From Salinigranum marinum (lineage in GTDB: Archaea > Halobacteriota > Halobacteria > Halobacteriales > Haloferacaceae), in NCBI RefSeq assembly GCF_024228675.1, contig NZ_CP100462.1, forward strand, positions 310,001-374,000: DNA of 64,000 nucleotides, written 5' to 3'. Under the pieces are notes generated by a model. It saw only the letters and a program-made list of their open reading frames with translations, did no database searches and was not told the origin of the DNA. Of this stretch, positions 24,459-44,217 are shown piece after piece. Both the position numbers and the translations under genes were made by a program. Numbering within the stretch: the first letter of the stretch is position 1; each line of letters starts with the position of its first letter.

Positions 24459-24584
24459 ATGTTAGATTTCGAAAATATATCCGAGGGCGGGCGGGTTCTG
24501 ACCGACAGTGGCCTCGGCCGCAGGATCAACACGCGCGAACGCGACCGTACAGGGGTGGTGGGGCAGAAGGGGAGGCGGAAATGA
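24459..24584 (+). CDS. tiny leading ORF of the giant operon (41 aa)
   Basis: The ATG at 24459 opens a 41-codon frame beginning MLDFENISEGGRVLTDSGLG and ending in a very basic, arginine-rich tail (RRINTRERDRTG, GQKGRRK). Its TGA overlaps the next gene's ATG by 4 bp (ATGA). That junction type is repeated through the whole operon, which is the main reason to regard it as real. The basic tail is unusual among acidic haloarchaeal proteins. It may be a coupling leader peptide or a small component of the system. Confidence 0.45.
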   Translation: MLDFENISEGGRVLTDSGLGRRINTRERDRTGVVGQKGRRK

Positions 24585-27238
24585 GTGGAACAGTCGACGT
24601 GAGCACGCTCCCACTCGTTCTCGCGGGACCACTGCTCCGGCGTGTTGAGCCGACGAGCGTCGCAGTCTGGGTCGCCTTGCGGGAGCCACGGACGCTCACT
24701 CTCACTGTCTCGGACGGAACGAACTCGGTCCTTCAGGGCAACCCCCAGACGACGGTTCAGGTCGGCGAGCATCTCCACGTCGGTGTCATCACCGCCACGA
24801 CCACCGTCAGTGGACCTCTCGACCACGGGACGGTCTACGAGTACGAGATCGCGTTCGGGAACGGACAGACGCTCTCCACCGCGAACGTGCTGACAGGCGG
24901 CCTCGAATCGATTACGTATAATGAACAGGCCGGCCCGACGTTCTCGCTGCCACCGCCGGATCCGAACGACCTCCGACTCGTCCACTCCTCGTGTCGGAAG
25001 CCACACGGCGAGGGATTCGACGCGCTGCCGGCGGTCGACAAGATGATTGAATCGACGGCCCACGATGCCACCGCGCGGCCACACCAGCTGTTCCTCACCG
25101 GCGACCAGATATACGCCGACGATGTCGCCGATTCGTTACTCGCCCATCTCATCCCGCTCGGGTCGGCACTCCTCGGTAAGACGGAACGGTTCGAGACCGC
25201 AGACGGCCAGCAGACGATCGCCGACTTGCAACCGGGACAGCGTGCGACCGTTGCCGAACGTGACTGTGGGTTCAGTTCCGGCGAATCGAAGAGTCACCTC
25301 TTCGGGCTGGCAGAGTACTACGCGATGTACCTCGCGTGTTTCTCCGAGACGACGTGGCCGACGACAGTTCCCACGCCGGAGGACGTCCTACCGGAGGAGT
25401 ACGCGACTGCGATGCGGTTCATCCGCGAACTCGGCGACCCCTCGGCGTTCACCGACCCAGATGACTGGATTGAGAACGTCGGCCACATCGGCCACGTGCG
25501 GGAGCAACTGCAGAACGCGGGTCGATATGGTGACATGGTGTCATTCAGCACCGCCGCCTCAGAACTCGAAGAGTTCGCGGAGGCGAGACAGCGTGTCGAG
25601 CAGTTCGGGGCCGACCTTCCGAACGTCCGTCGGGCGCTCGCCAACGTCCCGACGTACATGATATTCGACGACCACGAAGTGACCGACGACTGGTTTCTCA
25701 ACGGTGCTTGGACCGAGCGGGTGCTCGGGAAATCGATGGGCAAGCAGGTCATCCAGAACGGTCTCGTCTCGTACGCCGTCTGTCAGGCCTGGGGGAACAC
25801 CCCCGAGCAGTTTGCGGCCGGAACCCGTGGCCGCACGTTACTCGACACCGTGACTGTCGACGGGAGTACTGCCGACCTCGATATCGACAGGGACGGGCTC
25901 GACGCCCTCCTCGACATCCCCTCGGTCGGCGGGGAGTCGTTGACCTGGCCGGCGGACCCGCTCGAGTGGCACTACTCGCTCTCGGGAACCGCCGACGGCA
26001 ACGGCGACCTGGGCCACGAGGCACTGGTCCTGAACACCCGGACGAGGCGAGGGTTCGACCCGGACGACGGGCTGGCGCCACCGGAGATTGTCAGTGCGGC
26101 GGCGCTCCAAACACAGCTTCCGGACGCCGCCGCGACTGCGAAGGTGACCGTTGTCATCTCGGCCGTGCCGGTGTGGAACCCACCGGTCGTGGATTTCGCT
26201 CAGGACCTCGCGTATTATCTCGGTGGGGCGGAGGCGGCAGACTACGAGCACTGGCGCCTTCAGCATGCCGCGAGAGAGCGACTCATCTCACGGTTAGCCC
26301 TGCGACGTCAGGCGCTCGCTGACTCCCCAGCGAGGTCACGCGTAATCTCACTCTCGGGAGATGTCCACTACGGGTTCGGCACCCGCGTTCAGTACTGGGC
26401 AGAAAAACCGTACGAAGCAGCCGATCAAGCGGTCACTGACCTCGTTGTCGCCGCGTTCACGGCCAGTGCCGCGAAGAACCAGGACTTGAAAACCTCGCTC
26501 CTCAACTCCTTCGGCTATCAGGCCGCGTGGATACTCCTCTACCCGTTCGTCTTCCTCATCGAAGGTGCGGTTAACCTGATACCCGACGTCGACATCGACG
26601 TTCCGAAACGAGAGGCACTGCTGCTCGCATACCCCCTCGCAAAGCTCCTGGACGGGATGCCCGAAGAGGTCGTCTTCGGCTGGAACGAACGCCCGGAGCA
26701 ACTCCGGCGATTTCTGCGTACGACTACCGAGGACCCCACGACGACACAGTTTAGCATGGATATCGGGACGTGGGAACTCGCACCAGCTCCGGAGCCCGAC
26801 TGGCGCTACCGGGTCGATTACGTCGATGGCGCGACGTACTACGACGAGAGCGAGACGCCGGAGACCGGTGTTGATGACTTTGCGATTCCGGAACACGACG
26901 GCACGGACCCACAGACCCGCGAGAAGGCGATGGCGACCTACTACGAAGCGGTCGACTGGTGGCGGCAGTGGGTGTACAACGAGGACCCCGGGCCATCGGA
27001 CCGGAGCGGCGAGTACGGTCACGGCGCCGAGATTGTCGGCGTGAACAACGTCGGCGAGATCGTCTTCGAGTGGGGGACGACAGACAAGCGGGCGATTCAG
27101 GCGCTCTGGTGGCGACTCGCGAACGACGAGGACCCTGACAAGCCCTTCCCATTCCCGTTCCCGCTGAGCAAGTACGTCGTCTCGCTCGAATACGACGATA
27201 GCGACCACCCGCGGCCGACGGCAGTGGTGGAGTCGTGA
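24581..27238 (+). CDS. PhoD-like metallophosphatase, first large gene of the giant operon
   Basis: An 885-residue protein. Residues about 10-110 form a fibronectin-like N-terminal domain (GPLLRRVEPTSVAVWVALRE) typical of PhoD-like enzymes. The catalytic domain follows: LVHSSCRKPHGEG near 135, LTGDQIYADDVADS near 172-185, IFDDHEVTDDW at about 361-371 and SLSGDVHYGFGTR at about 591-602. The metal ligands of the family appear present. Unlike typical PhoD proteins there is no Tat or other signal peptide, so it is probably cytoplasmic. One hydrophobic stretch near 660-680 (AAWILLYPFVFLIEGAVNLI) might touch a membrane. It overlaps the next gene by 4 bp. Confidence 0.8.
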   Translation: MSGTVDVSTLPLVLAGPLLRRVEPTSVAVWVALREPRTLTLTVSDGTNSVLQGNPQTTVQVGEHLHVGVITATTTVSGPLDHGTVYEYEIAFGNGQTLSTANVLTGGLESITYNEQAGPTFSLPPPDPNDLRLVHSSCRKPHGEGFDALPAVDKMIESTAHDATARPHQLFLTGDQIYADDVADSLLAHLIPLGSALLGKTERFETADGQQTIADLQPGQRATVAERDCGFSSGESKSHLFGLAEYYAMYLACFSETTWPTTVPTPEDVLPEEYATAMRFIRELGDPSAFTDPDDWIENVGHIGHVREQLQNAGRYGDMVSFSTAASELEEFAEARQRVEQFGADLPNVRRALANVPTYMIFDDHEVTDDWFLNGAWTERVLGKSMGKQVIQNGLVSYAVCQAWGNTPEQFAAGTRGRTLLDTVTVDGSTADLDIDRDGLDALLDIPSVGGESLTWPADPLEWHYSLSGTADGNGDLGHEALVLNTRTRRGFDPDDGLAPPEIVSAAALQTQLPDAAATAKVTVVISAVPVWNPPVVDFAQDLAYYLGGAEAADYEHWRLQHAARERLISRLALRRQALADSPARSRVISLSGDVHYGFGTRVQYWAEKPYEAADQAVTDLVVAAFTASAAKNQDLKTSLLNSFGYQAAWILLYPFVFLIEGAVNLIPDVDIDVPKREALLLAYPLAKLLDGMPEEVVFGWNERPEQLRRFLRTTTEDPTTTQFSMDIGTWELAPAPEPDWRYRVDYVDGATYYDESETPETGVDDFAIPEHDGTDPQTREKAMATYYEAVDWWRQWVYNEDPGPSDRSGEYGHGAEIVGVNNVGEIVFEWGTTDKRAIQALWWRLANDEDPDKPFPFPFPLSKYVVSLEYDDSDHPRPTAVVES

Positions 27239-30200
27239 GTCCCGAGACAACGGCCCTCGAGGAGTTCCTCGCGCCGCTCAAACAGGCCATCGAGAGCGAA
27301 CACGCACGCCATCGACTGTTCGGGACTATCGGCTGGGATGTCGAGGCGCTCCCGCAAGCGACAGTCGTGGAGGCGCTCGAGGCGGTCGTGACGGCCGCCG
27401 AGGACCTCGCCGGGTTCATCGAGGACCCACCGGATTCGCTCGGGGAGTTCCTCGACGCGCTTGAGGCGGCGTCGACGCTCGTCGACGCGATGGCCGGTCT
27501 GGAGGAGGCGCTCGACGACACTGCGGGCGTCCCCGTGGAGATATACGCGGCTTTCGGCGAAGACCTCTTCACCCTCCTCGTCGTCGGCTTCCTCCGGACA
27601 CACCACCCTGTGGCGCTCCAGGTGGCCACGTTCCTGACGCTTCTCCGGCCCGCGACGCCGGCGACCCGCCCGACGCTCACGCTCGACGATGGGACCGTCG
27701 TCCGGTACGCCTCACCCGCTCTCGATTTCGACTTCGGCCACGTCGTCGACCTCCTCACCGACCCCGTAGACACGCTCAAAGCCGAGTACGGACTCACCGG
27801 GTCACTGGACGAACCCGACCTGCGAGAGCGACTCACCGAGGAGATACTTCCGATGCTCACCGCACTGTTCTACGCGACGGGGATGCCGGTCGAGTACGGC
27901 CCCGGATCGACTACCGAGGACCTCGAGCTCCCGTTCGCCGACCGTGGGACGGACCTGGGCTGGGTTCGTGTCCGGTTCGAGGCCGGTGAGGCCGAGTTCT
28001 CTGTTCGCGTCCACGTCCTCTTCGACGACGCCGACGGAGTCACGCTCGTGGTCGTTCCGAACGGGAGTACCGACGTCCCGATGCAGGTCGGACGGTGGGC
28101 GTTCACCATCGCGGCCGATTCGGACGGCGGAGCGCTCGCCATCGATACGGGAGGCGGCTCCGACGCCGTCACGTTCGACGGTGCCGACGGTCATCTGAAC
28201 GTCTCGCTCACCGCCGTCAGACTCCCTGACGACTCCGGTGCCGCGTTCCGTGTCGGTGGTCGTGAGGGGACGCGACTGGAGGTTGGCCGTCTCGAAGTCG
28301 ACGGCACCGCCGACATCAGCTCGACACAGGAGTACGGTGTCATGGCCCGTGCACGGGAGTCGACGTTCGCGCTCGAACCCGGTGACGGCGACAGTTTCCT
28401 GCGCAAGGTGTTCCCGGAGGGAATGGCGACTGACTTCGACCTCGGCCTCGGCTGGTCGACGAGTCGCGGTGTCCATCTGGAGGGGAGCGGCGCCTTAGAG
28501 TTAGAGCTCCCACTACACGTCTCGCTTGGGGAGTTCCTGTCGATGGACGGGCTGTCCGTCGGTGTGCTGCCCGGCGGGACCGGCGAGACCGACCCAGGCA
28601 CTGACGGTCGGCGGGTGCCTGTCTACATTGGGACGACGGCGAGCGCCCAACTGGGTCCCATCGCGGCGACAATCGAAGGGGTCGGGCTCGAGGTATCGCT
28701 CTCGTTCCCCGAGGACGGGGACGGAAACCTCGGGCCTATCCACGCGGACATCGGATTCAAACCACCCAACGGGGTCGGCCTCGCGGTCGATGCGAGTGCC
28801 GTCGTCGGCGGAGGGTATCTCTACTTCGACCACGAACAGCAACGGTACGCTGGCGTTCTGACGCTCACCGTCGGGAGTCTCACCCTCAATGCCGTCGGGC
28901 TCTTGACGACGCAGCTCCCGGACGGCTCGGATGGGTTCTCCCTGCTGATCATCATCACCGGTGAGTTCCCACCACTGCAGCTCGGATTCGGGTTCACGCT
29001 GAACGCAGTTGGCGGACTCTTAGGGATCAATCGCGGAGCGCGTGTCGACCCACTCCGTGCTGGTGTGAAGGACAACAGCATCAAGTCGGTGCTGTTCCCT
29101 GACGACCCGATTCGGAACGCCCCGACGCTCATCAGCGACCTCCGTCGGTTCTTCCCACCCACACCGGACCAGCACGTCTTCGGCCCGATGGCCGAGCTTG
29201 GGTGGGGGACGCCGACCATCGTTCGCGCCCAGCTCGGGCTGTTGCTCGAACTTCCGTCGCCGGTCAGGTTACTGATACTCGGTCGGATACAGGCGGCGCT
29301 CCCAACACCGGAGGCGCCGCTTCTGTTGCTCCAGATGAACGCCCTCGGCGTGATTAACTTCGATGAGGGGACGGCGTCTGTCGACGCCAGCCTGTACGAC
29401 TCTCGGGTCGTCGCCTACACCCTCACCGGCGACATGGCGATGCGGACCAACTGGGGTGACGACCCCGGGTTCGGGCTGGCTGTCGGCGGGTTCCACCCGA
29501 AGTTCCAGCCGCCACCGGAGTTTCCCCCGCTCGCACGGGTGGCTGTCGCGTTGGCGAGCGGCGACAACCCACGACTCCGGATGGAAGGCTACTTCGCACT
29601 GACGAGCAACACCGTCCAGGTCGGTGCGGCAGTCGACGCCTACGCCAAGGCCGCCGGGTTCTCGGTCAGCGGCCATCTCGGCTTCGACGCCCTCTTCCAG
29701 TTCGACCCGTTCAGATTCCTAATCGATTTCGCTGCCCACGTCAGGGTTCGGGGGATGGGGCTCTCGCTCGGGCTCGGCCTTGAAGGCTCGCTCGAAGGCC
29801 CGTCCCCATGGCGAGTCAAGGGGAAGGCGTACATCGACCTCTTCCTCTTCAGCGCGACCGTCAAAGTGAACGCGACCATCGGCAGCGCGGCGTCGTCGCC
29901 CGGTATCCCCCCGGCGGAGGTGTTCACCGAGTTCCGTGCCGCACTCAGCGAGCCGGGCAACTGGAGTGCACAGCTCCCCCGCGGCGGTGACTCACTCGTC
30001 ACGCTCCGCGAGGTTGCGGCCGAGGAGACGCAGCTGTTGGCCCATCCGCTTGGCGACATCGAGGTGGTCCAGCGGGTGGTGCCGCTCGACGTCGCTATCG
30101 AGCGATACGGAAACGCCGAGCCCGCCGACTACGATACGTTCCGTGTCGGCGATATCACCGTTGCCGGCCAGACAATCGACGACGAGCGTCACGAACTCGA

Positions 30201-30738
30201 CGCTCAGTTCGCCCCCGCACAGTTCTTCGACATGACCAACGCCGAGAAGCTCTCTGCGCCATCGTTCGAGCGGTTCGCGGCCGGTTATCGGGTGAGCACC
30301 GGCGCGCTGGCGTTCGGTGGGAAACCGACCGCGACGAACGAGTCGCTCGGTGACCAAATCGTCGAAGCGACCCTCGAGTACGAGAGCGTCTACGTCGACG
30401 AAGAGGAGAACGACGTCCCGTTCTACACGTTCATCTCACCTCGCGTCGTGACCGCACTCAGCGAGGTGAGTGCCGTCGCCACGAGCGACGCTCGGACGAC
30501 AGGGTCGGTGAAGTTCACCGGGGGGACGAGCGATGCGGTCTCCGTTGAGGACACTGGCTACACCGTCGTCACAACCGACTCGTTCGAACACGTCTCCGCG
30601 ACCGGTGTCGACGCCTCGGGAACCACCTACACACAGGCGAAACAGGCGCGCGACGCGTATCTCGCCGAGATCCCTGACGCCGACGTCCAGGTCGTCACAG
30701 CACACGAACTGGCCGGGGCCGACGGAGGTGGCTCGTGA
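27235..30738 (+). CDS. DUF6603-type large beta-rich protein of the giant operon
   Basis: A 1167-residue protein from a GTG start that overlaps the previous stop by 4 bp. An alpha-helical N-terminal part (residues about 1-190) is followed by long beta-strand-rich sequence with alternating hydrophobic residues. The conserved block GFGFTLNAVGGLLGINRGAR (about 585-604), then ELGWGTPTIVRAQLGLLLEL and ILGRIQAALPTPEAPLLLLQ, fits DUF6603. Strands such as MGLSLGLGLEGSLEGPSPWR near 840-860 are glycine-rich, almost porin- or sheet-like. There is no signal peptide. Function unknown; structural or shell-like roles are only guesses. Confidence 0.65.
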   Translation: MSPETTALEEFLAPLKQAIESEHARHRLFGTIGWDVEALPQATVVEALEAVVTAAEDLAGFIEDPPDSLGEFLDALEAASTLVDAMAGLEEALDDTAGVPVEIYAAFGEDLFTLLVVGFLRTHHPVALQVATFLTLLRPATPATRPTLTLDDGTVVRYASPALDFDFGHVVDLLTDPVDTLKAEYGLTGSLDEPDLRERLTEEILPMLTALFYATGMPVEYGPGSTTEDLELPFADRGTDLGWVRVRFEAGEAEFSVRVHVLFDDADGVTLVVVPNGSTDVPMQVGRWAFTIAADSDGGALAIDTGGGSDAVTFDGADGHLNVSLTAVRLPDDSGAAFRVGGREGTRLEVGRLEVDGTADISSTQEYGVMARARESTFALEPGDGDSFLRKVFPEGMATDFDLGLGWSTSRGVHLEGSGALELELPLHVSLGEFLSMDGLSVGVLPGGTGETDPGTDGRRVPVYIGTTASAQLGPIAATIEGVGLEVSLSFPEDGDGNLGPIHADIGFKPPNGVGLAVDASAVVGGGYLYFDHEQQRYAGVLTLTVGSLTLNAVGLLTTQLPDGSDGFSLLIIITGEFPPLQLGFGFTLNAVGGLLGINRGARVDPLRAGVKDNSIKSVLFPDDPIRNAPTLISDLRRFFPPTPDQHVFGPMAELGWGTPTIVRAQLGLLLELPSPVRLLILGRIQAALPTPEAPLLLLQMNALGVINFDEGTASVDASLYDSRVVAYTLTGDMAMRTNWGDDPGFGLAVGGFHPKFQPPPEFPPLARVAVALASGDNPRLRMEGYFALTSNTVQVGAAVDAYAKAAGFSVSGHLGFDALFQFDPFRFLIDFAAHVRVRGMGLSLGLGLEGSLEGPSPWRVKGKAYIDLFLFSATVKVNATIGSAASSPGIPPAEVFTEFRAALSEPGNWSAQLPRGGDSLVTLREVAAEETQLLAHPLGDIEVVQRVVPLDVAIERYGNAEPADYDTFRVGDITVAGQTIDDERHELDAQFAPAQFFDMTNAEKLSAPSFERFAAGYRVSTGALAFGGKPTATNESLGDQIVEATLEYESVYVDEEENDVPFYTFISPRVVTALSEVSAVATSDARTTGSVKFTGGTSDAVSVEDTGYTVVTTDSFEHVSATGVDASGTTYTQAKQARDAYLAEIPDADVQVVTAHELAGADGGGS

Positions 30739-33700
30739 GCCAGCGAGCCGAGTACCGGTTCGTCCCCTGGCTTCGACGCGGGTTCATCCCGTCGACGACG
30801 GACCCGCTCGATGGCCCGATAGCGGATCCGAGTCAGTTTGCCGTCCGTCTGACACCGGAGGCAGAGCGCAACGGGACCACGAGTCCTGAGACCCCGGAAA
30901 CGGTCGACATCCGGATGTACGGCCCGGGAGACGTGCTCGGCTTCGACCATCGACAGGTCGTGCGAACCGAGCCTGAACCGCAGACACCGGAGTTCACCCC
31001 GAACTACTTCCCGATGGTCGAGTTCGACACGCCGACGCTTCCGTGGCTGTTCAGCCCGGCCAAGGCGACGGCCGAGGGGAAGCTCCGCCCCTGGATGACG
31101 CTCGTCGTCGTTCGCGAGCAGGACGGCGTCTCCCTGACGACTGGGACTCGGCGTGAGACACCCGTACTCGAAATCGCGGGTGACGCCGACCCCGCCGCGG
31201 AACTGCCGGACCTCTCGGAGTCGTGGGCGTGGGCGCACGTCCAGGTCGTCGGCGACCCGAGTTCGGGCGCAACTGAGGCGACCTGGTTGACCGACGAGCT
31301 AGCGCGTGACTCCGTCAGGACGCTCTCCAGGCTGGTCGCCCCACGCCGGCTCCAACCGGACACGTCGTACCTCGCGTGCGTCGTCCCGACGTTCGAACCG
31401 GGACGACGCGCGGGCCTCGGCCTGGAGCCGTATCCGAACACGGGCGACGACGAGACGGAAACCGGTTCCGTCACCCCGGCGTGGGAGATAGACGCTGCCC
31501 CCTCGTCCATCCAGCTTCCCGTCTACTTCTCCTGGCGGTTCTCGACCGGGCCAGCGGGGGATTTCGAGGCGCTCGTCCGTCGCCTCGACGCGGAACAGCT
31601 GACGTCAGTCGGCTTCCGCGACATCGATGCCACCGACCCCGGGCCCCCGGAGCTGTTCGATTACAGCCCGACAGACGTCCGAGTCGAGGGCGCGCTGCGA
31701 GCGATTGGTCTCGATCAGGTTCCCTACCCGAGTCAGAACCGCAGCGACCTGGCTGGCATCCTCGGTCAGGTCGACGAGTCGGCGACCCCTCCGACGTTCG
31801 GCCCGCCGGTGTACGGGGAGAGACACGCCGGTGTTCCGTTACCGTCCGTCGACGCGCGGACCGACGCCGGTGCGGTTCCGTGGCTTCGGGAACTGAACGT
31901 CGACCCGAGACACCGAATCGCCGGCGGCTACGGGACGCAGGTGGTCCAGCACGAACAGGAGGCGCTGATGCGGTCGGCCTGGGAGCAAGTGGGTGACGTC
32001 AGACGGGCGAACGAACTGCTCGCCCGGGCACAGTTGGCCCGCGCGGCGTCGGCCGGAATCCACGACGACCTCACGGCACTGTCACCGGCTGACTTGCTGA
32101 CGGTCACCGGCCCGATGCACGCTCGCGTCAGCGACGAGGAGACGGTCCACGCGACTGTCGAGGCGAGCCGTGTCCCCCGCGGCGTGCTCTCGCTCTCGTT
32201 CCGCCGACTATCACGGCCTGGTGGCCCCCTTGGGAAGCGACTTCGACGAGCCGCAGGCGGAACGAACCCGCTTGCTCCGGCGTCGGTACTCGAAACCTTC
32301 GACCGGCCCGACGACCATCCAGGAGGCCCCTTCCTCGTCGAGTCGGAGAGCCCGCCGAATGGGACCGTCGTCATCGAACCTGGAACCAAGCGGCGCCCGG
32401 AGGTCACGGAACTCTGTACGGCTCTCGGCGACGCCATCTCCAAATCGGGCGGCCCCTGGCCACCGGCGTGGGCCCCAGAGCTCGAGGGACGTGACTTGCG
32501 TCAGAGACTAAATGGCTGGTGTGCGACTGCCGCCCGGTCGCGCGAACAGCTCCACGCGGCGCTCAAGCAACACGACACCGACAGTCTCGATAAGCGCTAC
32601 CAGGCCGTTTTCGACCGGCTCCGTGACGCTCACCGCTGTCTCTGTGAGGACGGGCTGGAAACTCTCGAGGCGGCCCTCGACGAGAGCGACCCACGAGGAG
32701 AAGTCGCTGCGCTCGCGAGACTCATCGAGTGCTATCGCGACTACGAGACGGCACTCTCGGATCTGGACTACCTGCTCACCCTGACCGAGATGCAGGAGCA
32801 GGAACCGGTCGGTGAGGCCTTCGAAGCGCTCGAAGAGGTGCTGTCGGAGCTGGCCACCCTCCTCAGACGCCGGGCACTCACGCATCTCGACGAGGACTTC
32901 TGCCAGGTTTCGCTCGACCGATTCCGAGCCGTCGAGGAGCGCCCAGATATCAAGGAGGCACGTCTCACCGCGCTCAGAAACGTCTGCCGACTGCTGTGCG
33001 GTGACGAGGAGTCGGGAACGCCGGGGCTCGTCGCAGAGTTGCTCGTGTGGGTGCGGTCCAGTGGGTCGTCCGCGCACCGACTCTCGAGCGTCCTGTTCCG
33101 GGAACTCGTACGGATACTCACAGTCGTGGCTGACCTGCTTTCTCGTCTCGAGGCGTCGGTTGAGACGTCGGCTGACGACGGCGAGACGCGAAACGTCGTG
33201 CGAGCGCTCCGGTCGATTTGTGCCGACCTCGAACTGCTCGTCACGTTCCTCACCGCCGTGATTGGGGCTCCGGAAGACCCCGTGGCAGCCCGACATCGGT
33301 CGATAGTCTGTGACCCACGGCCACCGTTCCCGTCGGCTAGGCCCGATGCCAGACTCGGTGACCCCACCCTTGTCGAACCACTCTCCCCGCTCGCCGACCT
33401 CGTCTCCGGGGCTACCGACCCGGAGATGACCGTGACCGCAAGAGTCGCCGGCCGAATCAACGCCGTCGACCCGGACCGAACCGACGGTGACCCCCTCGAC
33501 GTCATCATGGCCGCTCCGGAGTTCCCACAGCCGATGTACGAATCACTCCGTGACCTTGACGTCGAACACTTCCTCCCAGGGGTGGCTGACGTGCCACCTG
33601 ACAGCATCGGCCTCCTGGAGACCAACCCCGAGTTCGTCGCGGCACACCTCGTTGGGCTGAACCACGAGATGGCCCGCGAACTCAACTGGCGAGAGTACCC

Positions 33701-34424: not shown

Positions 34425-34425
34425 T

Positions 34426-34536
34426 ATGCAACCGACACCGACAGCAGCCACCCGATGTAACACGGCCGAACCGTCAGCAAGTCAATCGAACCGACGCGGC
34501 GGAACGATTCCTGCCGAGAACGGGAGCGCACTGTGA
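34426..34536 (+). CDS. tiny coupling ORF between the 1229-aa and 2322-aa genes (36 aa)
   Basis: The ATG at 34426, one base after the previous stop, opens a 36-codon frame (MQPTPTAATRCNTAEPSASQ, then RRGGTIPAENGSAL). Its TGA overlaps the GTG start of the 2322-aa gene by 4 bp. Without it there would be a 108-bp untranslated gap in an operon where the large genes otherwise overlap. It is either a real mini-protein or a translational bridge. Sequence composition is Thr/Ser/Pro-rich, with no recognised family. Confidence 0.4.
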   Translation: MQPTPTAATRCNTAEPSASQSNRRGGTIPAENGSAL

Positions 34537-37500
34537 GCGCGAGTACCCACCGGAGTGCGGTCCGCGAGGCCCGCGAACTCCGGGCGCGTCTGGAGGCCCA
34601 ACGGCTCGATGCGACCGCCGCGTTCGAGCGGACCGAGGGGGCCGTCGCGTCGATTCGACGCGGGACTGGAAGTACCGACGGAACCGGAGCGACCACCGGC
34701 CTGGTCGACGCGTTCGAACCGCTCGAACGAGGAGCGTTCGAAGCCGCGGTCGAGTCGCTGTCGACACTCAGCGACGCGTACCGACCGAGTGCGATGGAGT
34801 CGGCGCGTGGGAAGGCACTCACTGCGTACGAGAAGCGCCCGATGCGCCGACGGCACGGGAGGAGACGGGGGAGAGTGCCATCGGAGCGCCGACAAGACGA
34901 CAGGCAGTTCAGACAGGCGTTCGGCCGTATGGTCGATTTGTTCGGCGAGCGGCTTTCGGCTCAGGCTGAGACACGTCTCGAACTGCTCGTTCGACTCTAC
35001 CGCACCACGACGGACGACCCCCGCTTCGAACAGACGCTCAAAGAGATCGATGAGGCCTACACGGCGGTGTTCACGGACGCCCTCGACGAACCGCTTGCGC
35101 GGGTTCGCGACCTGTTTGGTGACGAGGCTACAGGCGCCGAACCCGCCATCGAACGCTTCGAAACCGCATACCACGCCGACGATTCGGTCGACGCAGCCGA
35201 AGCGCTTGCTGACCTCACGGCTACCTTCGAGTCGGTCGTCCGGTCCGTCCTCGATGCTTGGCGGGCCGAGTTCGTCACGGCTATCGACGAGACCGATACC
35301 GTCGCTGTCGAGGCAGGATTCGACCGCCTCAGAGACCGACTTCGAGGGGCGAACAGCCGCCTCGAAGACGCCGAGAGACGACTCACGGAGGCGCTCGAAC
35401 GATACGTCGAGCTGCTCCCGACTGACCCTGACGCGGTCCTGTCGGAACTCTCCGAAGCCGACCCGGTCGTCCTGTTCCCAGTTCAACTCGAGACCCGCTT
35501 TGAACGCGACGCCAGCGGTGACGTCTCGGCGTTACAGATTCGAGTGTACCCCGACGATATCCACGTCGAGAGCCACGAGCGGACGCTCACCGACGCCGAG
35601 CGCGTCCTCGGCGTCCGGTTCTGGGCACACTGCTGGTGGGCGTGCCACGAGACAGACGGTGAGAGCGTCGCACAGTTCGTCCCGGAATCGGGGGTTGTCG
35701 CGGATGCGTTCGCCGAATTCGACCTCGGGGTGCTCCCGAATGCCGCTGCCTCCCGGTACGACGCGGTGAAAGAGCGCGCCTGGAGCAACCTGGTCGACCG
35801 GCTCGGCACCGAACGAGCCGGATGGGTGAAGACAGCGACGGCACCGCCTGCCGGCGTCACATCGGTCCTGCTCGACGGGCCGGTCCCACCGGCCGAGGTT
35901 CCGGCTGTCGACTTCGAGATGCTCGGTGAGGACGTCGTCTCGAGTCCCGGCTCCTGGACGCAGGTCCCGCGAGCGCGACTCCTCCCGGACCGCTGGGTTG
36001 TCTCTGTGACGACAGAAACCGAACGCCGGACCGTAGTTGGGGCGACGATTCCAGAACCCCTCCCGCTAGGTCCCGACCCCGACCCCGTCGGGGCGGCTGT
36101 CGGCGACACGGAGACCGACCCGGCGACAGACACCGGCGGCCTCCACGACGACGACGGCGCCAAGTGGCTCGTCGACTTCGAACGGGCCAGGGCAGTCGGG
36201 ATGGGTGTCGAACTCCCGATAATCGCCGCCGACGTTCCGTCTGAGGGGCTCGACGTTGTGGTCGTCGGCGTGAAGACGTCGATAGACGACGCGGAGAGTG
36301 CCGAGGCGCTCCGTGACCTCTTCGAGGACCACCACTACACGGACGGGTTGTCGATGCTCGCGTCGGGCACACCGACGAACGCGACAGCGGACGGGTCGCC
36401 GCCGTTCGCTACGAGCGACGACGCGACGGCGGCGCTCCCGGTCGAGTGTGGCCGGTCGCTCCTCGAGACGGAGTCGACCACGACAGCCCTCGATGGGGCA
36501 GTCGTTCCGGACGGAGCGCGACTCGCTCGCTTGCTCGCTATCGATGCCGACAGACTGAGTGGCGACACTGAAGCACACGTCTTCGCCCACGTCGACGGCG
36601 CCGGCGGGACGGCAGACGCCGATGCGCTCCACATGAACACCGCGCTGTGGTCCGCCACGTGGGGGACGTACGTGCCGAACATGCTGTTCCCGCGCGGGTG
36701 GGTTGGAAACGACTTCGGCGACTACGACACCGCCCTCGACTGGCTGGGCGGCTTCCGCGAGCACTTCCTCGAATACGTTCGCGCCGACGGGCCGTTTCCG
36801 ACGCTCCGTGTTGGGCGGCAGCCGTACGGCGTTCTCCCGACGACGGCGCTTGGCGCGTGGAGTGACGCACCGATGACGCCGACACCGGAGCCGTTCCCCG
36901 GCCCAGAAGGTGGGTACGACTCGCGGCAGACGAGATATCCGGTTGTGACAGACACGCTCCGGGACATCCTCTTCGAGGACGGGCAGTTCGACGCCGGACT
37001 CCTCCCGTTCTGGGAGGCCTCCGTCGGTGGCGTCCCCCACGTCGAGGACGGGACGACCGGGTCGCTACTGGAGCTGTTGAGTATGAGCGCGACCGCGTAC
37101 GGCTATCGCGGCCACAACCTGTTCAGCGTGCGGGGGCTCTGGCACTCGCTGACTGGGACGCCGACGCCACCACCTGACCAGTTCGCGACCGCCATTGGAA
37201 ATCTCCTGTCGAGCCTCGAGAGCGGCGTCGCGGTCGAACTGATGACGGCGTTCGGCGTCGACGTGACGAAGGTCCCACGCATCGTCTCACTGCTCTACGG
37301 CCCGCCGAACCCCCGACATTACGGGGCGACGACAGGGCCGCTCGAACCGCTCGTCGGCCCCGAGATGGATGCGTGGTTCAGTCGCTTGCAAAACGGGGCA
37401 GTCTCGATCCTCTCGGGACTCCCGAGTGACGAGTCACCGCTTGAGGGACTCGACTTCGAGCTGAAACACTCGTTTTCCGAAGATCTCACGCGTCTCTACG

Positions 37501-40500
37501 GTTCTCTCTTCTACCAGTCCAGTCCCTCGTTGCTCGGGAAGCTCCTCACGTACGCGACGCTTCAGGAGTACGCCCTCGCCAGGGTCCGCCTGGAGAGCCG
37601 GTTCCGTCGAGAGACGACGGATGAACTCGGTCGCGATACGATGGCCCCGCTCTGGCGACTCCTCCCTGAGCCCGATGTGTACACCGACACCGAGGAGAGC
37701 CTTCTGGACAGACTCGACGACGAAGTCCCGCCGTTACTGGCACGGCATCCGGAACTCAGAGTCGACGACGAGGAGGCCAAAGAGAGAGACGTGGACTACC
37801 ACGAGGCCCTCGAGGTTGCGAAGGCGGTGACCGACCCGGCGCTGGAGGTCGACGCCACGTTCCGCGAGTTCATGACCGCGCTCGCTTACTTCGAAGGCAG
37901 GGGCGCCGACCAGTCGACGCTCACTCACCTCTTCACCGGCACACTCGACCTCGCCACTCACCGTGTCGATGCGTGGGCGACATCGCTCGCGACACGTCGT
38001 CTCGACGAGATCAGAACGGCACAGGAACAGACGGGCGAAAATCCGGGCGTCCACATCGGTGGGTACGGAACGGTCACGGGACTCAGACCCGACGAGAAGG
38101 ACTCGCTCGGCTACCTCCACGCGCCCTCGCTCTCGCAGGCGACGACCGGGGCCGTTCTCCGGAGCGGTTCCCTCTCCACCGACGGTGAGCGGCGCTCGAT
38201 GCTCGACCTCGATCTCTCGGCCGAACGGGTTCGAAAGGCGACGACACTGTTCGACGGACTGCGGACCGGCCAGTCGCTCGGTGCCCTGCTCGGCTATCGG
38301 TTCGAGCGCGCACTCCACGAGCGTGGTCTCGACGTCTACGTCCCCGAGTTCCGCCGGCTTGAACCAGGGGTCGCCGGCAAACTCGATCGGTCGGGCGACG
38401 AACCAGACACCGAGCGGACTGCCGACACGGTCGACGGGGTGGCACTCGTTCGGCGTGCGGAAGGGTCCGGACAGTGGGCAGACATCTCCGCCAGCGACCG
38501 CATTCCGTGGGGGGAGGCCGTCGATTCTACGGTCTCTGAATCGACCCCCTTACCGCCGCGCCCAGGGCCGACAACCGACGAGGGAGACGCCGACCCCGAC
38601 TACCTCGGTCTCAGCCAGGCGCTCGACGAACTCGTCGACATCGTCGACAGCGTTCGAGATGTCCTCGTCGCGGAGAGTGTCCACGGTCTCGTCACGGGCC
38701 GCCCGATGCAGGGAGGGGCCTCCCTCGACGCGCTCGCACGCGGCGAGGCTCCGCCCCAAGTGACGTTCACCCAGACACCGCGAAGCGGTGTTGGCATCAC
38801 CCACCGCCTGCTGGTCCTGTTCGACGACCCGTCCACCCTCAGTGACGGCGATAATCCGACGACTCCATGGCCGGAGACGGCCCGGGCGGCCGCCGAACCG
38901 ACGTTGAACGCCTGGTTCGCCACGCTCCTGCCGGACCCTGACACGACCGTCTGTCTGTGTGAGGTGGACCGAAACGATGGGACGCCGCCGACACCGCTCG
39001 TGATCACGCTCGGGGAACTAGCCGTGGCTCCGATGGACCTCCTCGTCACGGACGAGGCCGTGACCACGACGCAGCGCTCGGCGCTCGAAGAACGGATTCG
39101 CCACCGTGTGAGTCGCGCCCGGGGGTTGAGTGGCGACCACGAACTCCGCCTCCGATTCGACCGCCCGACGGCGTGGATTGAGACCTACTCCGCAGCGTCG
39201 TTCGAGCGGGCGGACCCCGCCCAGACAGTGCCAGACCTCACAGCCGCGACCGACCTCGGATCAGTGCTGGAACTCGTCCGCGTCGGGCACGAACTGGTCG
39301 CTGGCGGGCGGGCAGCCGATGCGACCGACCTGACGCTTCCGACCGCCGAGACGGAACACGGCGGCGTGGACGCGGCGGCGTTGCGCGCCCGGGCCGACAC
39401 CGCGACTGCCCAGCTGTCCACGGTGACAACCGACCTCGACGAACCGTTGGAGTTCCTCCGGCCTCGCCGCCCGGACGAGGAGCCGGGAGACGGAAGGGCC
39501 ACGCCCGAAGCGGAGCAGACGCCCGTCCCGACGGAGCCGAGTACGGTAGAGCGACTCGACGTGGTTGCCGACGCCCTGGGCGCGGTATCTACGCGGCTCG
39601 GAACGCTGGCAGATTCGAACGCACCCACCGCGGCGACGGTGTATGGCTCCGTCTCAGAGGTGGCGACAGCACTCGCGGGCGTCGACGAGGGGCACCTCTA
39701 CGACGCCATCGACGAACTCGCCGGCGCGCTCGCGGGCCCCCTCGCGGTGTTCGCCACCGTCGGCGACCGGGTCGAACTCGAAGCGGTCGCCGGCCAGACG
39801 GTCTCAGGCGCGACCGTCGCCACAGAGGGGACGACACTCCGTATCCGACTGGGGGGGACCGACACGGAACTCCTGCGGACGGAGACGGCAACGGTAGCGG
39901 TCGATGGTACGTTCCAAGCCACGTTCGACCTGTCTGCCGTTCCGGTGGGGACGGCAGTCGACGTCTCCATCGAGACGGCGACCGAGACGCTCACGGCGGC
40001 CGACGGCGTCGTCGTCGACGCCATCACCGGGACGCTGTCGACACCGGCGCTCAGCCCGCCAAAAACGGAGCCTCTGGAGGCGTACCGTCGCCCGATGGCG
40101 ACGCTGGTCGCGGTGGAGTCCGAACTTGCCACACTCGCGTCAGCGCTCGAAGCTGTCGACACCACGGCCTTGCGGTCGACGCTTGACGCACAGCCGTGGG
40201 CTGACCTCGCCACGAGGCCCGGCTGGCAGAACGACTGGTCGACCGACACGCCAGTCAGAGTCGAGACAACGCTCGAACTCGTCGACGCACGGCTGCCCGG
40301 GTTCGGCACACCGGAGACGACGAGCGACCCCTGGAACTCCCTCGTGGCGCTGGTCGACGTGCTGCCGGCCGAGGTGAACCTCGTCGAACTGTCGGCAAAC
40401 GAGCGAGCCGAAATGGCGGCTCACCTCTCCGATGCGGTGGACGGGGACGACCGAGCGACGTGGACGGCTGCCGTCTCGACGCTCGATGCGGCGCTCGAAG

Positions 40501-41501
40501 CCGACGCCGCGTCGCTCGCGACGGGCATCGACGAGGGACCCGCGTCGATTGTGGCTGCCGGGTTCGCCCTCGTCGAAGCGGTCCGTGGCGCACTTGTCGA
40601 CGCAGCGGCGTTCCTCGAGGACGGCCTGCCGGTCTCGGCGAACGGGGCCGCGACGGGTGGTGAACGGAAGGCACTCGTCAGGCAAGCCGTCTCGGTTGCC
40701 CAGACGCTGACGAGTCGGAGTGAGGCCGCAACGGATGCCGCCAGCGACGTGACCCCCGACACACAGCTCGCACGTCTCACCACGATATTCGGTGAGTCGT
40801 TCCCAGTACTTCCACCGTTCGAGACCGCGAACACGGCTGAACTCGACTTGGCGCTGACCGAGAGCCACCACCAGGTCCTTCGGGGTGACGACCCACTGGC
40901 GGCTGAGACGTGGGTCGACCGAGTTGGTCGCGTCCGCGATGCGCCCGCGACACTCGGGACTCTCCTGACATACGGGGACGCCGTCGGGACGACCGGCGGT
41001 GTCGGTGCGTCCCGATATCGGCTCGGCCAGCTGCCGTACGAGCCGACCGCGACGTGGATTGGCCTCGAATCAGCGACCGAGCGCCACCTCGGTGGGCGAC
41101 TCTCTCTCGTCGTCCATCCGGCGCTCGGGACCGACGGAGACCCGTACGCCGGGCTGTTCGTCGACGAGTGGGTCGAAGTGATTCCGGAACCCCAGGAGAC
41201 GACCGGCGTCGCGTTCAACTACGACAGCCCCGGGAACCGGCCGCCGCAGTCCGTTCTGGTGGCGGTTCCGCCCAACGACGCCGGCTGGTCGATTGGAACA
41301 TTGGAGGAGACGGTCGTCGAGACGATGTCGCTCGCCCACTCTCGGATGGTCGATTCGGACGCTCTCGGTGAGTTGGGACACTTCCTCCCCGCGTTGACGT
41401 ACGCACAACCCGACGACGCACCCGGGAGTCCGGAACGGGTCGCAGTCTCGTTCGACGACTTGATCGTTCCGGAGGCTGGCGCCGACGAGGGAGGTGAGTG
41501 A
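34533..41501 (+). CDS. 2322-aa giant protein of unknown function
   Basis: GTG start (SASTHRSAVREARELRARLE). Residues 1-300 are helical and charged. The conserved core begins DPVVLFPVQLETRFE (about 310). It continues with WSATWGTYVPNMLFPRGWVG (about 706), LRVGRQPYGVLPTTALGAWS (about 758), GYLHAPSLSQATTGAVLRSG (about 1194) and RTGQSLGALLGYRFERALHE (about 1243). A beta-rich Ig-like stretch lies near 1755-1820 (TVSGATVATEGTTLRIRLGG). The end contains LSLVVHPALGTDGDPYAGLF and VDEWVEVIPEPQETTGVAFN. No signal peptide, transmembrane helix or known catalytic motif was seen. At about 7 kb it is the largest gene of the window. Confidence 0.6.
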   Translation: MSASTHRSAVREARELRARLEAQRLDATAAFERTEGAVASIRRGTGSTDGTGATTGLVDAFEPLERGAFEAAVESLSTLSDAYRPSAMESARGKALTAYEKRPMRRRHGRRRGRVPSERRQDDRQFRQAFGRMVDLFGERLSAQAETRLELLVRLYRTTTDDPRFEQTLKEIDEAYTAVFTDALDEPLARVRDLFGDEATGAEPAIERFETAYHADDSVDAAEALADLTATFESVVRSVLDAWRAEFVTAIDETDTVAVEAGFDRLRDRLRGANSRLEDAERRLTEALERYVELLPTDPDAVLSELSEADPVVLFPVQLETRFERDASGDVSALQIRVYPDDIHVESHERTLTDAERVLGVRFWAHCWWACHETDGESVAQFVPESGVVADAFAEFDLGVLPNAAASRYDAVKERAWSNLVDRLGTERAGWVKTATAPPAGVTSVLLDGPVPPAEVPAVDFEMLGEDVVSSPGSWTQVPRARLLPDRWVVSVTTETERRTVVGATIPEPLPLGPDPDPVGAAVGDTETDPATDTGGLHDDDGAKWLVDFERARAVGMGVELPIIAADVPSEGLDVVVVGVKTSIDDAESAEALRDLFEDHHYTDGLSMLASGTPTNATADGSPPFATSDDATAALPVECGRSLLETESTTTALDGAVVPDGARLARLLAIDADRLSGDTEAHVFAHVDGAGGTADADALHMNTALWSATWGTYVPNMLFPRGWVGNDFGDYDTALDWLGGFREHFLEYVRADGPFPTLRVGRQPYGVLPTTALGAWSDAPMTPTPEPFPGPEGGYDSRQTRYPVVTDTLRDILFEDGQFDAGLLPFWEASVGGVPHVEDGTTGSLLELLSMSATAYGYRGHNLFSVRGLWHSLTGTPTPPPDQFATAIGNLLSSLESGVAVELMTAFGVDVTKVPRIVSLLYGPPNPRHYGATTGPLEPLVGPEMDAWFSRLQNGAVSILSGLPSDESPLEGLDFELKHSFSEDLTRLYGSLFYQSSPSLLGKLLTYATLQEYALARVRLESRFRRETTDELGRDTMAPLWRLLPEPDVYTDTEESLLDRLDDEVPPLLARHPELRVDDEEAKERDVDYHEALEVAKAVTDPALEVDATFREFMTALAYFEGRGADQSTLTHLFTGTLDLATHRVDAWATSLATRRLDEIRTAQEQTGENPGVHIGGYGTVTGLRPDEKDSLGYLHAPSLSQATTGAVLRSGSLSTDGERRSMLDLDLSAERVRKATTLFDGLRTGQSLGALLGYRFERALHERGLDVYVPEFRRLEPGVAGKLDRSGDEPDTERTADTVDGVALVRRAEGSGQWADISASDRIPWGEAVDSTVSESTPLPPRPGPTTDEGDADPDYLGLSQALDELVDIVDSVRDVLVAESVHGLVTGRPMQGGASLDALARGEAPPQVTFTQTPRSGVGITHRLLVLFDDPSTLSDGDNPTTPWPETARAAAEPTLNAWFATLLPDPDTTVCLCEVDRNDGTPPTPLVITLGELAVAPMDLLVTDEAVTTTQRSALEERIRHRVSRARGLSGDHELRLRFDRPTAWIETYSAASFERADPAQTVPDLTAATDLGSVLELVRVGHELVAGGRAADATDLTLPTAETEHGGVDAAALRARADTATAQLSTVTTDLDEPLEFLRPRRPDEEPGDGRATPEAEQTPVPTEPSTVERLDVVADALGAVSTRLGTLADSNAPTAATVYGSVSEVATALAGVDEGHLYDAIDELAGALAGPLAVFATVGDRVELEAVAGQTVSGATVATEGTTLRIRLGGTDTELLRTETATVAVDGTFQATFDLSAVPVGTAVDVSIETATETLTAADGVVVDAITGTLSTPALSPPKTEPLEAYRRPMATLVAVESELATLASALEAVDTTALRSTLDAQPWADLATRPGWQNDWSTDTPVRVETTLELVDARLPGFGTPETTSDPWNSLVALVDVLPAEVNLVELSANERAEMAAHLSDAVDGDDRATWTAAVSTLDAALEADAASLATGIDEGPASIVAAGFALVEAVRGALVDAAAFLEDGLPVSANGAATGGERKALVRQAVSVAQTLTSRSEAATDAASDVTPDTQLARLTTIFGESFPVLPPFETANTAELDLALTESHHQVLRGDDPLAAETWVDRVGRVRDAPATLGTLLTYGDAVGTTGGVGASRYRLGQLPYEPTATWIGLESATERHLGGRLSLVVHPALGTDGDPYAGLFVDEWVEVIPEPQETTGVAFNYDSPGNRPPQSVLVAVPPNDAGWSIGTLEETVVETMSLAHSRMVDSDALGELGHFLPALTYAQPDDAPGSPERVAVSFDDLIVPEAGADEGGE

Positions 41502-44217
41502 GATGCGCTCGCCCACCTCGTGGACCAGACTCGAACCACGGACCAGGGACCGTGAACTCAGCGAGGCGCTTCGTGCCCCCGTCCGTGACCCGCTGTGGCT
41601 GCTCGGCCGACAGTGGCAACTCGGCGAGTTCGCCGGCGAGGACGCCGGAACCCCGGTCCGGACAACGATGTCGATTCGACACCACCACCTCACGCGGTAT
41701 CGACTCGGCGACGGAGCCGTAGAGCGGTATCAGACGGGAGGCCCGACACCATCCCCGCCCCTAGAGGCACTCGTCGAACGGCAGCAGGTCCGGCCGCCGG
41801 CAGCAGAGTCGCTCGATGAGGGGCGAGACATCAAGCTCGCTGCCGAGGCTGGCCAGCGGTTCATCGCCCTCCTCGCCGACGAAGGCATCGGGGCTGAGCC
41901 GACCGACTTCGCGGAGAGCGACCTGGGTGAGTATACCGACGTCGGCGTGACCGATCTCCTGCTGGACCCCGACCCGTCGACGCTCCGGGGCGACCCTGCG
42001 AGCGAGCGGTATCTCGCCGTGGTCGCCGGTCGGGTACTCGACGGCGACGCGCTGTATCGTGTCGTCCAGAAGGCGCTGCCAGCGGCGAGTGGGAGTGCCG
42101 ACCCCACCGTTCCACTACCGGAGCCGACGCCAGGGCCAGTCGACGACCAGGCGTACCGACGAGCGTTCGAGCGCTTCCGTGACTGGTATGCGGACTGCTA
42201 CAGCGAGCCCGAACCGTCGGCCGATGGCTGGGATGACGACCGCTTGGAACACCGGTTCGAGGTCGGAGTCGGTGACGCCACCGACGGCTTCGTGTTCGGC
42301 GCCGAGGAGTACCGTGGCGGTCGTCTCGACTGGTACGCCTTCGACCACGAGCCGACAGCGTCGCTGGCGGTTCCGCCGGAACTCCTGCTCGAGTCGGACG
42401 TCCTGCGTGACCTCCTCGAACGCTCCGGGTCACTGGCAGACCTCCTCGACAGCCCCCTCCCAACGGACGGGGGGTCTGACTCGATTGCGGCCGACGGAGA
42501 CGGTGTCGAGACGAGTCTGGAAGATGCGACGACGGACGGCGGGACAACCGAAACGACGACCACAACGGAGGTGACAGTCGACACGACGCCGACGCGGCTC
42601 CGGTACAAGGGGATGCCCGCTCCCCGTTGGTGGGAACTCGAAGACGGCGCGGTCAACTTAGACCTCATCGACGCCGCCCCGGAGGACCTCTCACGGCTCC
42701 TCTTGCTCGAATATGGGGTCCTCTACGGCAACGACTGGTTCCAACTCCCGATCAACACCCCTGTCGGAACGTTCACCACAGTCGAGGAGATGCGCGTGAC
42801 GGACTCGTTCGGCACCGAAACGGTCGTGGGGCACACCTCGGAGGCGACCACCGCAGAGACCGAGACAGACGCCGACACCGACGAGTCAGCCCCCTGGCGA
42901 CTCTTCGAGTTCGAGACGTCGACCGGCCACGGGCTCCTCTTGCCGCCGGTCGTCGCGGGACTGCTCGAGAGCGACCCGGTCGAGGAGGTCCAGTTCGTCC
43001 GCGACGAACTCGTCAACGTCGCCTGGGCTCTCGAAGAACACGTCGAAGGCCCGCTCGGGCGACCGATTGATAGACACGAACTCGACCAGGAACGGGATGC
43101 TGAGCGTGGCGACGACCAGTTTGGACTCCCTGTCGCGTCGGTCGCAGACGTCGAGTACACGCTCGCAACGGACGTTCCGGACTACTGGCTTCCCCTGCTC
43201 CCCGTTCAGGGCCCGGATTCGCAGGTCGAACTCCGACTCGCGGAGTTGCTCGATGGCTCCGGCCGGACGAGTGAGTCGTGGGGACGACTGTTGGATGCCG
43301 ACCTTTCGGTGCCTGAAGAGGAAATCCCACGCTCGGGGACGGCCGTCAGGCGGAGCTACCAGCTGGCACGATGGGTCGACGGCTCGACCCACCTCTGGAG
43401 CGGTCGTCGGACGGACCCCGGACGCGGAGAGGGGACGAGCGGGCTGAGGTTCGACATCACAGCGGATCGTGAGGGTCACTCGAACGGTGTCAGTCGAGCG
43501 GCGAGCGCAAGCGACGATGCTCCGGTCGCGGTCGTCTCGCTGCAGTCCCGCCCGCCAATGACTGTCCCGGACCGGCTGAACGAGGAGTACCTGGTCCTCC
43601 AGAACGTGAGCGGGCGCCCCCTAAACGTGACCGACTGGACACTCACGGACACAGCGAACCACAGCTACACGTTCGGACAGCGCACGCTGGCTCCGGCCGA
43701 TATCGTCGTTGTTCGCTCCGGGTTGGGTCCGACCGACGACAGCGTCGTCCATCTGGACTCGCCGGGACCCATCTGGAACGACACTGCCGACGAGGTCCGG
43801 CTCTACGACGAGCGCGGCATGCTCGTACTCTCACAGTCGTACCCCGACCTCTCCGGTGTCGTCCCCGACAGTCCGGTCGCGGTCGAGCCAACACACGTCG
43901 ATGCCAGCGGTGACGACCACGACTCGCTCGCGGACGAGTACATCAGCATCCAGAACACCACCGACCCGGACGGCGGCGAGACGGTCGATCTGTCCGGATG
44001 GGTTGTCCGCGACATCGCGGACCACCGGTACGTCTTCCCCGACGATTCCCACTCGGAACTCGCGCCCGGGAGCCGGATTCGACTCAGAACCGGCTCTGGA
44101 GTCGATACGGACGAGGACCGGTACTGGGGCCAGTCCCGTGCCGTCTGGAACAACCGAGACGACGCCATCCTGCTGTTCGACCCGGACGGACGGTTGATGG
44201 CCGGCGCGGTGTACTGA
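41494..44217 (+). CDS. 907-aa protein with two C-terminal lamin-tail domains, last gene of the giant operon
   Basis: GTG at 41494 overlaps the previous stop by 8 bp; an ATG at 41503 is the alternative start. The N-terminal signature DPLWLLGRQWQLGEFAGEDA lies at about residues 33-52. A Thr/Asp-rich linker near 330-365 precedes MPAPRWWELEDGAVNLDLID and LLLLEYGVLYGNDWFQLPIN. Two lamin-tail-type (LTD) beta-sandwich repeats close the protein: LNEEYLVLQNVSGRPLNVTD to WNDTADEVRLYDERG, and LADEYISIQNTTDPDGGE to WNNRDDAILLFDPDG. LTDs often mediate attachment in secreted or surface proteins, yet no signal peptide is present here. Confidence 0.65.
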   Translation: MSEMRSPTSWTRLEPRTRDRELSEALRAPVRDPLWLLGRQWQLGEFAGEDAGTPVRTTMSIRHHHLTRYRLGDGAVERYQTGGPTPSPPLEALVERQQVRPPAAESLDEGRDIKLAAEAGQRFIALLADEGIGAEPTDFAESDLGEYTDVGVTDLLLDPDPSTLRGDPASERYLAVVAGRVLDGDALYRVVQKALPAASGSADPTVPLPEPTPGPVDDQAYRRAFERFRDWYADCYSEPEPSADGWDDDRLEHRFEVGVGDATDGFVFGAEEYRGGRLDWYAFDHEPTASLAVPPELLLESDVLRDLLERSGSLADLLDSPLPTDGGSDSIAADGDGVETSLEDATTDGGTTETTTTTEVTVDTTPTRLRYKGMPAPRWWELEDGAVNLDLIDAAPEDLSRLLLLEYGVLYGNDWFQLPINTPVGTFTTVEEMRVTDSFGTETVVGHTSEATTAETETDADTDESAPWRLFEFETSTGHGLLLPPVVAGLLESDPVEEVQFVRDELVNVAWALEEHVEGPLGRPIDRHELDQERDAERGDDQFGLPVASVADVEYTLATDVPDYWLPLLPVQGPDSQVELRLAELLDGSGRTSESWGRLLDADLSVPEEEIPRSGTAVRRSYQLARWVDGSTHLWSGRRTDPGRGEGTSGLRFDITADREGHSNGVSRAASASDDAPVAVVSLQSRPPMTVPDRLNEEYLVLQNVSGRPLNVTDWTLTDTANHSYTFGQRTLAPADIVVVRSGLGPTDDSVVHLDSPGPIWNDTADEVRLYDERGMLVLSQSYPDLSGVVPDSPVAVEPTHVDASGDDHDSLADEYISIQNTTDPDGGETVDLSGWVVRDIADHRYVFPDDSHSELAPGSRIRLRTGSGVDTDEDRYWGQSRAVWNNRDDAILLFDPDGRLMAGAVY

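Follow-up and report, generated by a model that had tools for sequence, protein, structure and literature searches.

The window analyzed here, 64,000 nt of Salinigranum marinum NZ_CP100462.1 whose positions serve as coordinates throughout, carries an operon of five large genes, P1 to P5, the second of which encodes a DUF6603 protein. P2 to P5 were found to be an obligate unit common to archaea and many bacterial phyla. Gene 1, which in the window encodes a PhoD-like phosphatase, is not part of this core; it supplies the enzyme of a fixed four-protein chassis and has been exchanged repeatedly. The initial annotation had called five large open reading frames (ORFs) on the plus strand, of 885, 1167, 1229, 2322, and 907 amino acids, and all were confirmed at those lengths, as were its PhoD and DUF6603 assignments and two lamin-tail domains; a BGTF domain in P4 can now be added. 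The features of the operon are as follows.

24459-24584, plus strand: tiny ORF of 41 amino acids, from the sequence; the PhoD start overlaps it by 4 bp
24581-27238, plus strand: P1, exchangeable enzyme module, PhoD-like phosphatase, 885 amino acids (Pfam PF09423 and motifs)
27235-30738, plus strand: P2, DUF6603 protein, 1167 amino acids, with a helical N-terminal part followed by a predicted large amphipathic beta-sheet or barrel-like core (Pfam PF20248, AlphaFold)
28585-30243, plus strand: DUF6603 domain of P2, residues 451 to 1003 (Pfam)
30735-34424, plus strand: P3, core subunit of unknown function, 1229 amino acids (relatives found by profile; AlphaFold model of a homologue)
34426-34536, plus strand: tiny ORF of 36 amino acids that bridges P3 and P4 (sequence, junction statistics)
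34533-41501, plus strand: P4, largest core subunit, 2322 amino acids (present at 103 of 103 loci)
39765-40019, plus strand: BGTF haloarchaeal surface domain inserted in P4, residues 1745 to 1829 (NCBIfam NF045517, E = 1.7e-15)
41494-44217, plus strand: P5, core subunit, 907 amino acids, with a core of ~570 residues and lineage-specific binding domains
43897-44205, plus strand: lamin-tail domain of P5, best stretch at residues 802 to 904 (Pfam PF00932, E = 1.7e-29; two stretches matched)

P2 to P5 form an obligate four-gene unit

P3 served as the tracer for locus collection, and the loci are therefore P3 selected. The P3 profile recovered 207 relatives in a species-level genome collection. Of their loci, 80 were retained; these come from haloarchaea, Actinomycetota, Bacteroidota, Chloroflexota, Pseudomonadota, Planctomycetota, Acidobacteria, and other groups. 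Plasmids that carry P3 came from haloarchaea, Streptomyces, Gemmatirosa, Rhizobium, Nocardia, and Paraburkholderia. Cultured nonpathogens with the locus include Halobaculum gomorrense DSM 9297 and Muriicola jejuensis. When 103 loci, from species-level genomes, plasmids, and genomes, were scanned in six frames with P1 to P5 profiles, all four core families were found on one strand at 95 of them, and the remaining 8 lay at contig or record ends. Gene order was rearranged at two loci (L144 and L148). Since the 103 loci had been picked via P3, an independent co-occurrence test in 391 genomes of the class carries particular weight: the 18 genomes with a strong DUF6603 match (E < 1e-100) were the same 18 that had a strong P3 match. 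No relatedness among the core subunits P2 to P5 was detected by hhalign. The proposal in the initial annotation that the genes constitute one system, with homologues found together in other genomes, thus holds for genes 2 to 5; a fixed five-gene set does not, because the PhoD first gene is exchangeable.

The genes are tightly coupled. Start/stop overlaps of 4 bp (ATGA or GTGA) at 24581, 27235, 30735, and 34533 and an 8-bp overlap at the P4/P5 junction (GTGAGTGA, 41494-41501) bear out the earlier description, with the addition that at 24581 and 34533 the overlapping partner is a tiny ORF, the spacing between P3 and P4 being 108 bp. Core junctions in relatives were equally tight, with medians of -4, -1, and -4 bp and gaps of 30 bp or less at 65 of 77, 67 of 87, and 62 of 65 junctions. 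Because these junctions are so tight, most relatives have no space for the mini-ORF at 34426-34536, and nothing apart from the window sequence supports either tiny ORF; the one at 24459-24584 is probably not a gene, or is a translational leader only. P4 is ~1360 to 2000 amino acids long in most bacteria versus 2322 in the window. Fourteen opposite-strand ORFs clustered downstream were considered and set aside as probable antisense artifacts over P5, which the six-frame search found there.

Two side observations concern P2. In one actinobacterial group (L116, L117, L118, L132, L143, L147, L150, and L154), the DUF6603 region spans ~6 kb with repeated profile coverage, which suggests tandem or duplicated P2 genes. 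In addition, four further genomes of the 391 had only weak DUF6603-like stretches within other giant proteins (G108:C11:304433-305683, G348:C39:140582-141883, G380:C6:444901-445203, and G050:C1:2693563-2694006); these haloarchaeal open frames are 2300 to 2900 amino acids long, no P3 match was found there, and they may be distant relatives.

Exchange of enzyme modules at the first gene

By profile (PF09423, 40.5 bits versus a cutoff of 27, E = 2.3e-10) and by its motifs SSC, GDQIYADD, DDHEVTDDW, and SGDVH, which are conserved in cluster 3, the predicted P1 product is a member of the PhoD-like phosphatase family. The gene immediately 5' of P2 is usually close by, yet it comes from many families. 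Hidden Markov model (HMM) and motif classification, which covers loci with an upstream candidate and relies on automatic frame choice, gave 15 trypsin-like first genes, 10 PhoD genes (among all 103 loci, about 11 are of this type), 8 subtilases, 7 M64 peptidases, 4 genes with a papain motif, 3 PLD-like genes, 3 kelch/galactose oxidases, and 1 M14 peptidase. Further first genes encoded one tyrosinase and, at two loci, a VioB-type ferritin-like protein; Pfam matches among the first genes were to subtilase, M64 and M14 peptidases, PLD, kelch/galactose oxidase, and PKD. Consensus motifs were retained in the trypsin-like group (H/D/GDSG), the subtilases (ID-G/HGT/GTSxxAP), the M64 group (HExxHxxLxDEY), and the PhoD group, in agreement with active enzymes. 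A haloarchaeal group unnamed by Pfam has a DQGxTxxC motif and, later, HxxT, from which we infer that it may be papain-like.

On the P3 tree (FastTree), the first-gene type changes at least 28 times. Indeed, well-supported sister pairs differ in their first gene, as with trypsin/subtilase (L152/L133) and papain motif/unknown A (L042/G217). A C-terminal domain of ~110 residues is common to the trypsin-like group and two subtilases, which are unrelated protease groups, and could possibly be a docking tail. The suggestion of a phosphatase effector with structural partners was close in spirit; PhoD is one of many first genes, and an enzyme module on a chassis describes the operon more generally.

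Two arrangements upstream of P2 were also observed. At six loci (L037, L040, L141, L143, L152, and L154), two or three trypsin-like first genes stand in tandem 5' of P2 with the C-terminal domain in common. In six haloarchaea (G028, G046, G254, G213, G327, and G329), an extra large codirectional gene (~1200 to 1600 amino acids, cluster 2) lies 5' of the usual first gene; the cluster 2 member in L123 has PKD repeats.

The proteins are leaderless but carry surface-type domains

Signal-like N termini were judged by a simple hydropathy rule rather than a trained predictor. By this rule, 0 of 343 core proteins, including 0 of 85 P2 proteins, had a signal-like hydrophobic N terminus, which extends to relatives the earlier finding that the window proteins have no signal peptide. 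A hydrophobic N terminus was present in 3 of 68 first-gene proteins, none of them in an enzyme class.

Domains inserted in the core proteins and the enzyme vary with lineage. PA14 and F5/8-C domains are inserted in P5 of Caulobacter zeae, and Streptomyces longwoodensis has FG-GAP in P3 and a peptidoglycan-binding domain in the enzyme. Among 53 P5 proteins, three had a lamin tail and one had laminin-G, and BGTF also occurs in P4 of further haloarchaea. A strongly hydrophobic segment or hairpin, its N side rich in K, R, and W, lies around residues 600 to 660 of P3 at 27 bacterial loci; this segment is missing from the window P3 and from haloarchaeal P3. In haloarchaea, most first genes of group A encode their own hydrophobic segment. 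The initial annotation had considered a cytoplasmic machine; since several subunits carry surface and sugar-binding domains, such a location is now less likely.

Predicted folds of P2 and P3

P2 matched DUF6603 (PF20248) with 464.9 bits versus a cutoff of 27 (E = 3.9e-139), and by this profile it is a full member of the family. The window P2 was modeled with AlphaFold from 45 rows, with three plasmid rows left out, at a mean predicted local distance difference test score (pLDDT) of 76, mostly ~90 over residues 460 to 882, and the model has some 22 long antiparallel strands. Membrane beta-barrels were its best structural matches (the Mtr complex barrel, maltoporin, MOMP, LptD, and ushers), with apoB100 also listed. 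The strands average 12.5 residues versus 6.4 in P3, and over 45 sequences one strand face was conserved and hydrophobic (+2.4) and the other more polar (-0.9). Such a long-stranded sheet would suit either a barrel in a membrane or a groove that holds lipid. The Sec signal peptide that would be a mark of an outer-membrane beta-barrel was found in none of the 85 P2 proteins by the hydropathy rule.

P3 was modeled with AlphaFold as a 934-residue Verrucomicrobium homologue from 54 rows (pLDDT, 87; predicted template modeling score, 0.77). The model has two Ig/CopC-like halves around a helical middle. It had no overall match at E ≤ 0.001 among Protein Data Bank (PDB) structures or viral models and only partial Ig/CopC-like matches (Z, ~6); single domains may nevertheless have known folds. 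No confident family for P3 was found in Pfam, NCBIfam, or PHROGs, and the PDB matches of the P2 to P5 sequence profiles were limited to coiled coils, designed helices, and marginal cases.

A possible enzyme-carrying complex

The reading that we favor, at somewhat less than even confidence, is that of a leaderless multi-protein enzyme-carrying complex whose site of action is a surface or membrane beyond the producing cell. As read from sequences and predicted folds, the operon would specify one physical complex with P2 to P5 as the fixed chassis and the first-gene product as the enzyme carried. Because the enzyme lacks an export signal, the complex would assemble in the cytoplasm and exit by a non-Sec route, either lysis or an unknown exporter. 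Attachment to a surface would fall to the variable binding domains, whether these sit on P5, P4, P3, or the enzyme, and the barrel-like P2, together with the P3 hydrophobic segment in some bacteria, would engage a membrane, at or across which the enzyme would work. A more specific version, in which a leaderless delivery machine of archaea and bacteria inserts a P2 barrel into a target membrane, uses P3 to P5 as carrier and targeting parts, and takes as payload any of at least eight unrelated enzymes, strikes us as doubtful.

Several observations weigh against the enzyme-carrying complex. The structural matches of P2 reached a Z score of 14.4, at a root mean square deviation of 11.7 A, but deviations were mostly 11 to 13 A with low TM scores, and soluble sheets, too, can contain amphipathic strands. 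The P3 hydrophobic segments could simply hold the complex in the membrane of the producer itself. Twenty-nine first genes were unclassified in the HMM/motif count, partly due to automatic frame choice, and three of these were named later; the recurrent first-gene types A and C are without a recognized enzyme motif. Moreover, no downstream gene recurs widely across loci as a conserved immunity-type partner, very small genes not having been examined, and the absence of a recognized immunity gene tells against a self-harming toxin.

Among the alternatives, an intracellular or membrane-attached scaffold is possible but on balance unlikely. The chassis would then anchor one enzyme at the producer's cytoplasmic membrane through the P3 segment and gate its access to substrate or to lipid in the P2 beta-groove. 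Such an arrangement accords with the lack of a leader on every core protein, with the K/R/W-rich N side of the P3 segment at the 27 bacterial loci, and with the P2 matches to apoB100 and LptD, which are lipid-handling beta proteins. However, inserted domains of the PA14, F5/8-C, laminin-G, BGTF, FG-GAP, and peptidoglycan-binding types typically belong to extracellular proteins, and the window and haloarchaeal P3 proteins lack the segment that would serve as anchor.

A surface-bound or released complex that digests phosphate, peptides, or lipids as nutrients, without other cells as its aim, is less probable still. Most of the identified modules (PhoD; serine, metallo-, and cysteine peptidases; PLD-like) are normally secreted kinds of hydrolase, and the lack of a visible immunity gene is as it would be for digestion; copper oxidase, tyrosinase, and ferritin-like modules, however, are ill suited to nutrient acquisition. 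Exoenzymes for digestion normally retain Sec or Tat leaders, which are absent here, and digestion needs no barrel-like protein.

The large codirectional structural-type genes and one PHROG "tail protein" match, limited to the lamin-tail part of P5, might recall a derivative of a phage tail or contractile injection system, which we consider very improbable. P2 had no relative in 50,697 phage records, P3 had neither a relative among 2.9 million viral contigs nor a viral structural match, and no sheath, tube, baseplate, or ATPase match was found in Pfam or PHROGs. That no single system exists and that large genes, each core member being of unknown function, have adjoined by chance has a negligible probability and is refuted for P2 to P5 by their obligate co-occurrence across domains of life in the 103-locus scan.

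Genomic context

The operon and the surface gene that follows it (24001-50000) have ~60 to 69% G+C, with flanks mostly at 53 to 62%, consistent with arrival or a mosaic replicon. That downstream gene (45629-50557) encodes a predicted 1642-residue surface protein with a hydrophobic N terminus and a membrane-like C-terminal end and appears to be separate from the operon.

Comparison with known systems and significance

Tc (ABC) toxin complexes are likewise giant multi-subunit proteins, and they have a fixed chassis with a nonconserved enzyme (PMC6868009); the lysis release proposed here resembles the route, via specialized cells, shown for one Tc member (PMC10847048). No Pfam match to Rhs/YD, SpvB, VRP1, or TcA/TcB was found in P1 to P5 at E ≤ 1. 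Unlike in Tc toxins, the enzyme here is a separate gene rather than a TcC tail, and the system is also present in archaea. The TcA channel is alpha-helical, whereas the pore candidate here, P2, is predicted to be beta-sheet. By these sequence comparisons, the system is not a Tc toxin. Polymorphic toxin systems share with it an exchangeable catalytic module beside a conserved carrier, but here the module is a separate gene, its identified types are ordinary hydrolases and oxidases, and no conserved immunity gene was seen. The Thermococcales hypervariable Ig-domain module is also archaeal and combines one large gene with variable partner genes; by its published description, it differs in gene content (PMC8416519).

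Among the PADLOC defense models, P1 to P4 had no match and P5 matched only via its lamin-tail part, with generic subtilase/DrmC-like matches for other enzyme modules; as judged by these models, the system is not a listed defense system. No literature naming DUF6603 was found among mostly open papers, excluding preprints, and an earlier description under another name is possible; searches for PhoD-like proteins with polymorphic toxins, PhoD-like proteins with haloarchaea, and the BGTF domain also found none. The DUF6603 family is without a described function. Because no paper names DUF6603 and the core has no relative of solved structure, the system is, as far as our searches show, new in kind, and the functions proposed for it are putative.

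That archaea and many bacterial phyla keep the same four-protein set while swapping its enzyme over and over strongly suggests a general machine, one that our searches did not find described and that is readily testable in cultured nonpathogens. If the enzymes are carried outside cells, DUF6603 would gain a role, and the system would add another delivery principle to those of Tc toxins, contractile systems, and polymorphic toxins.
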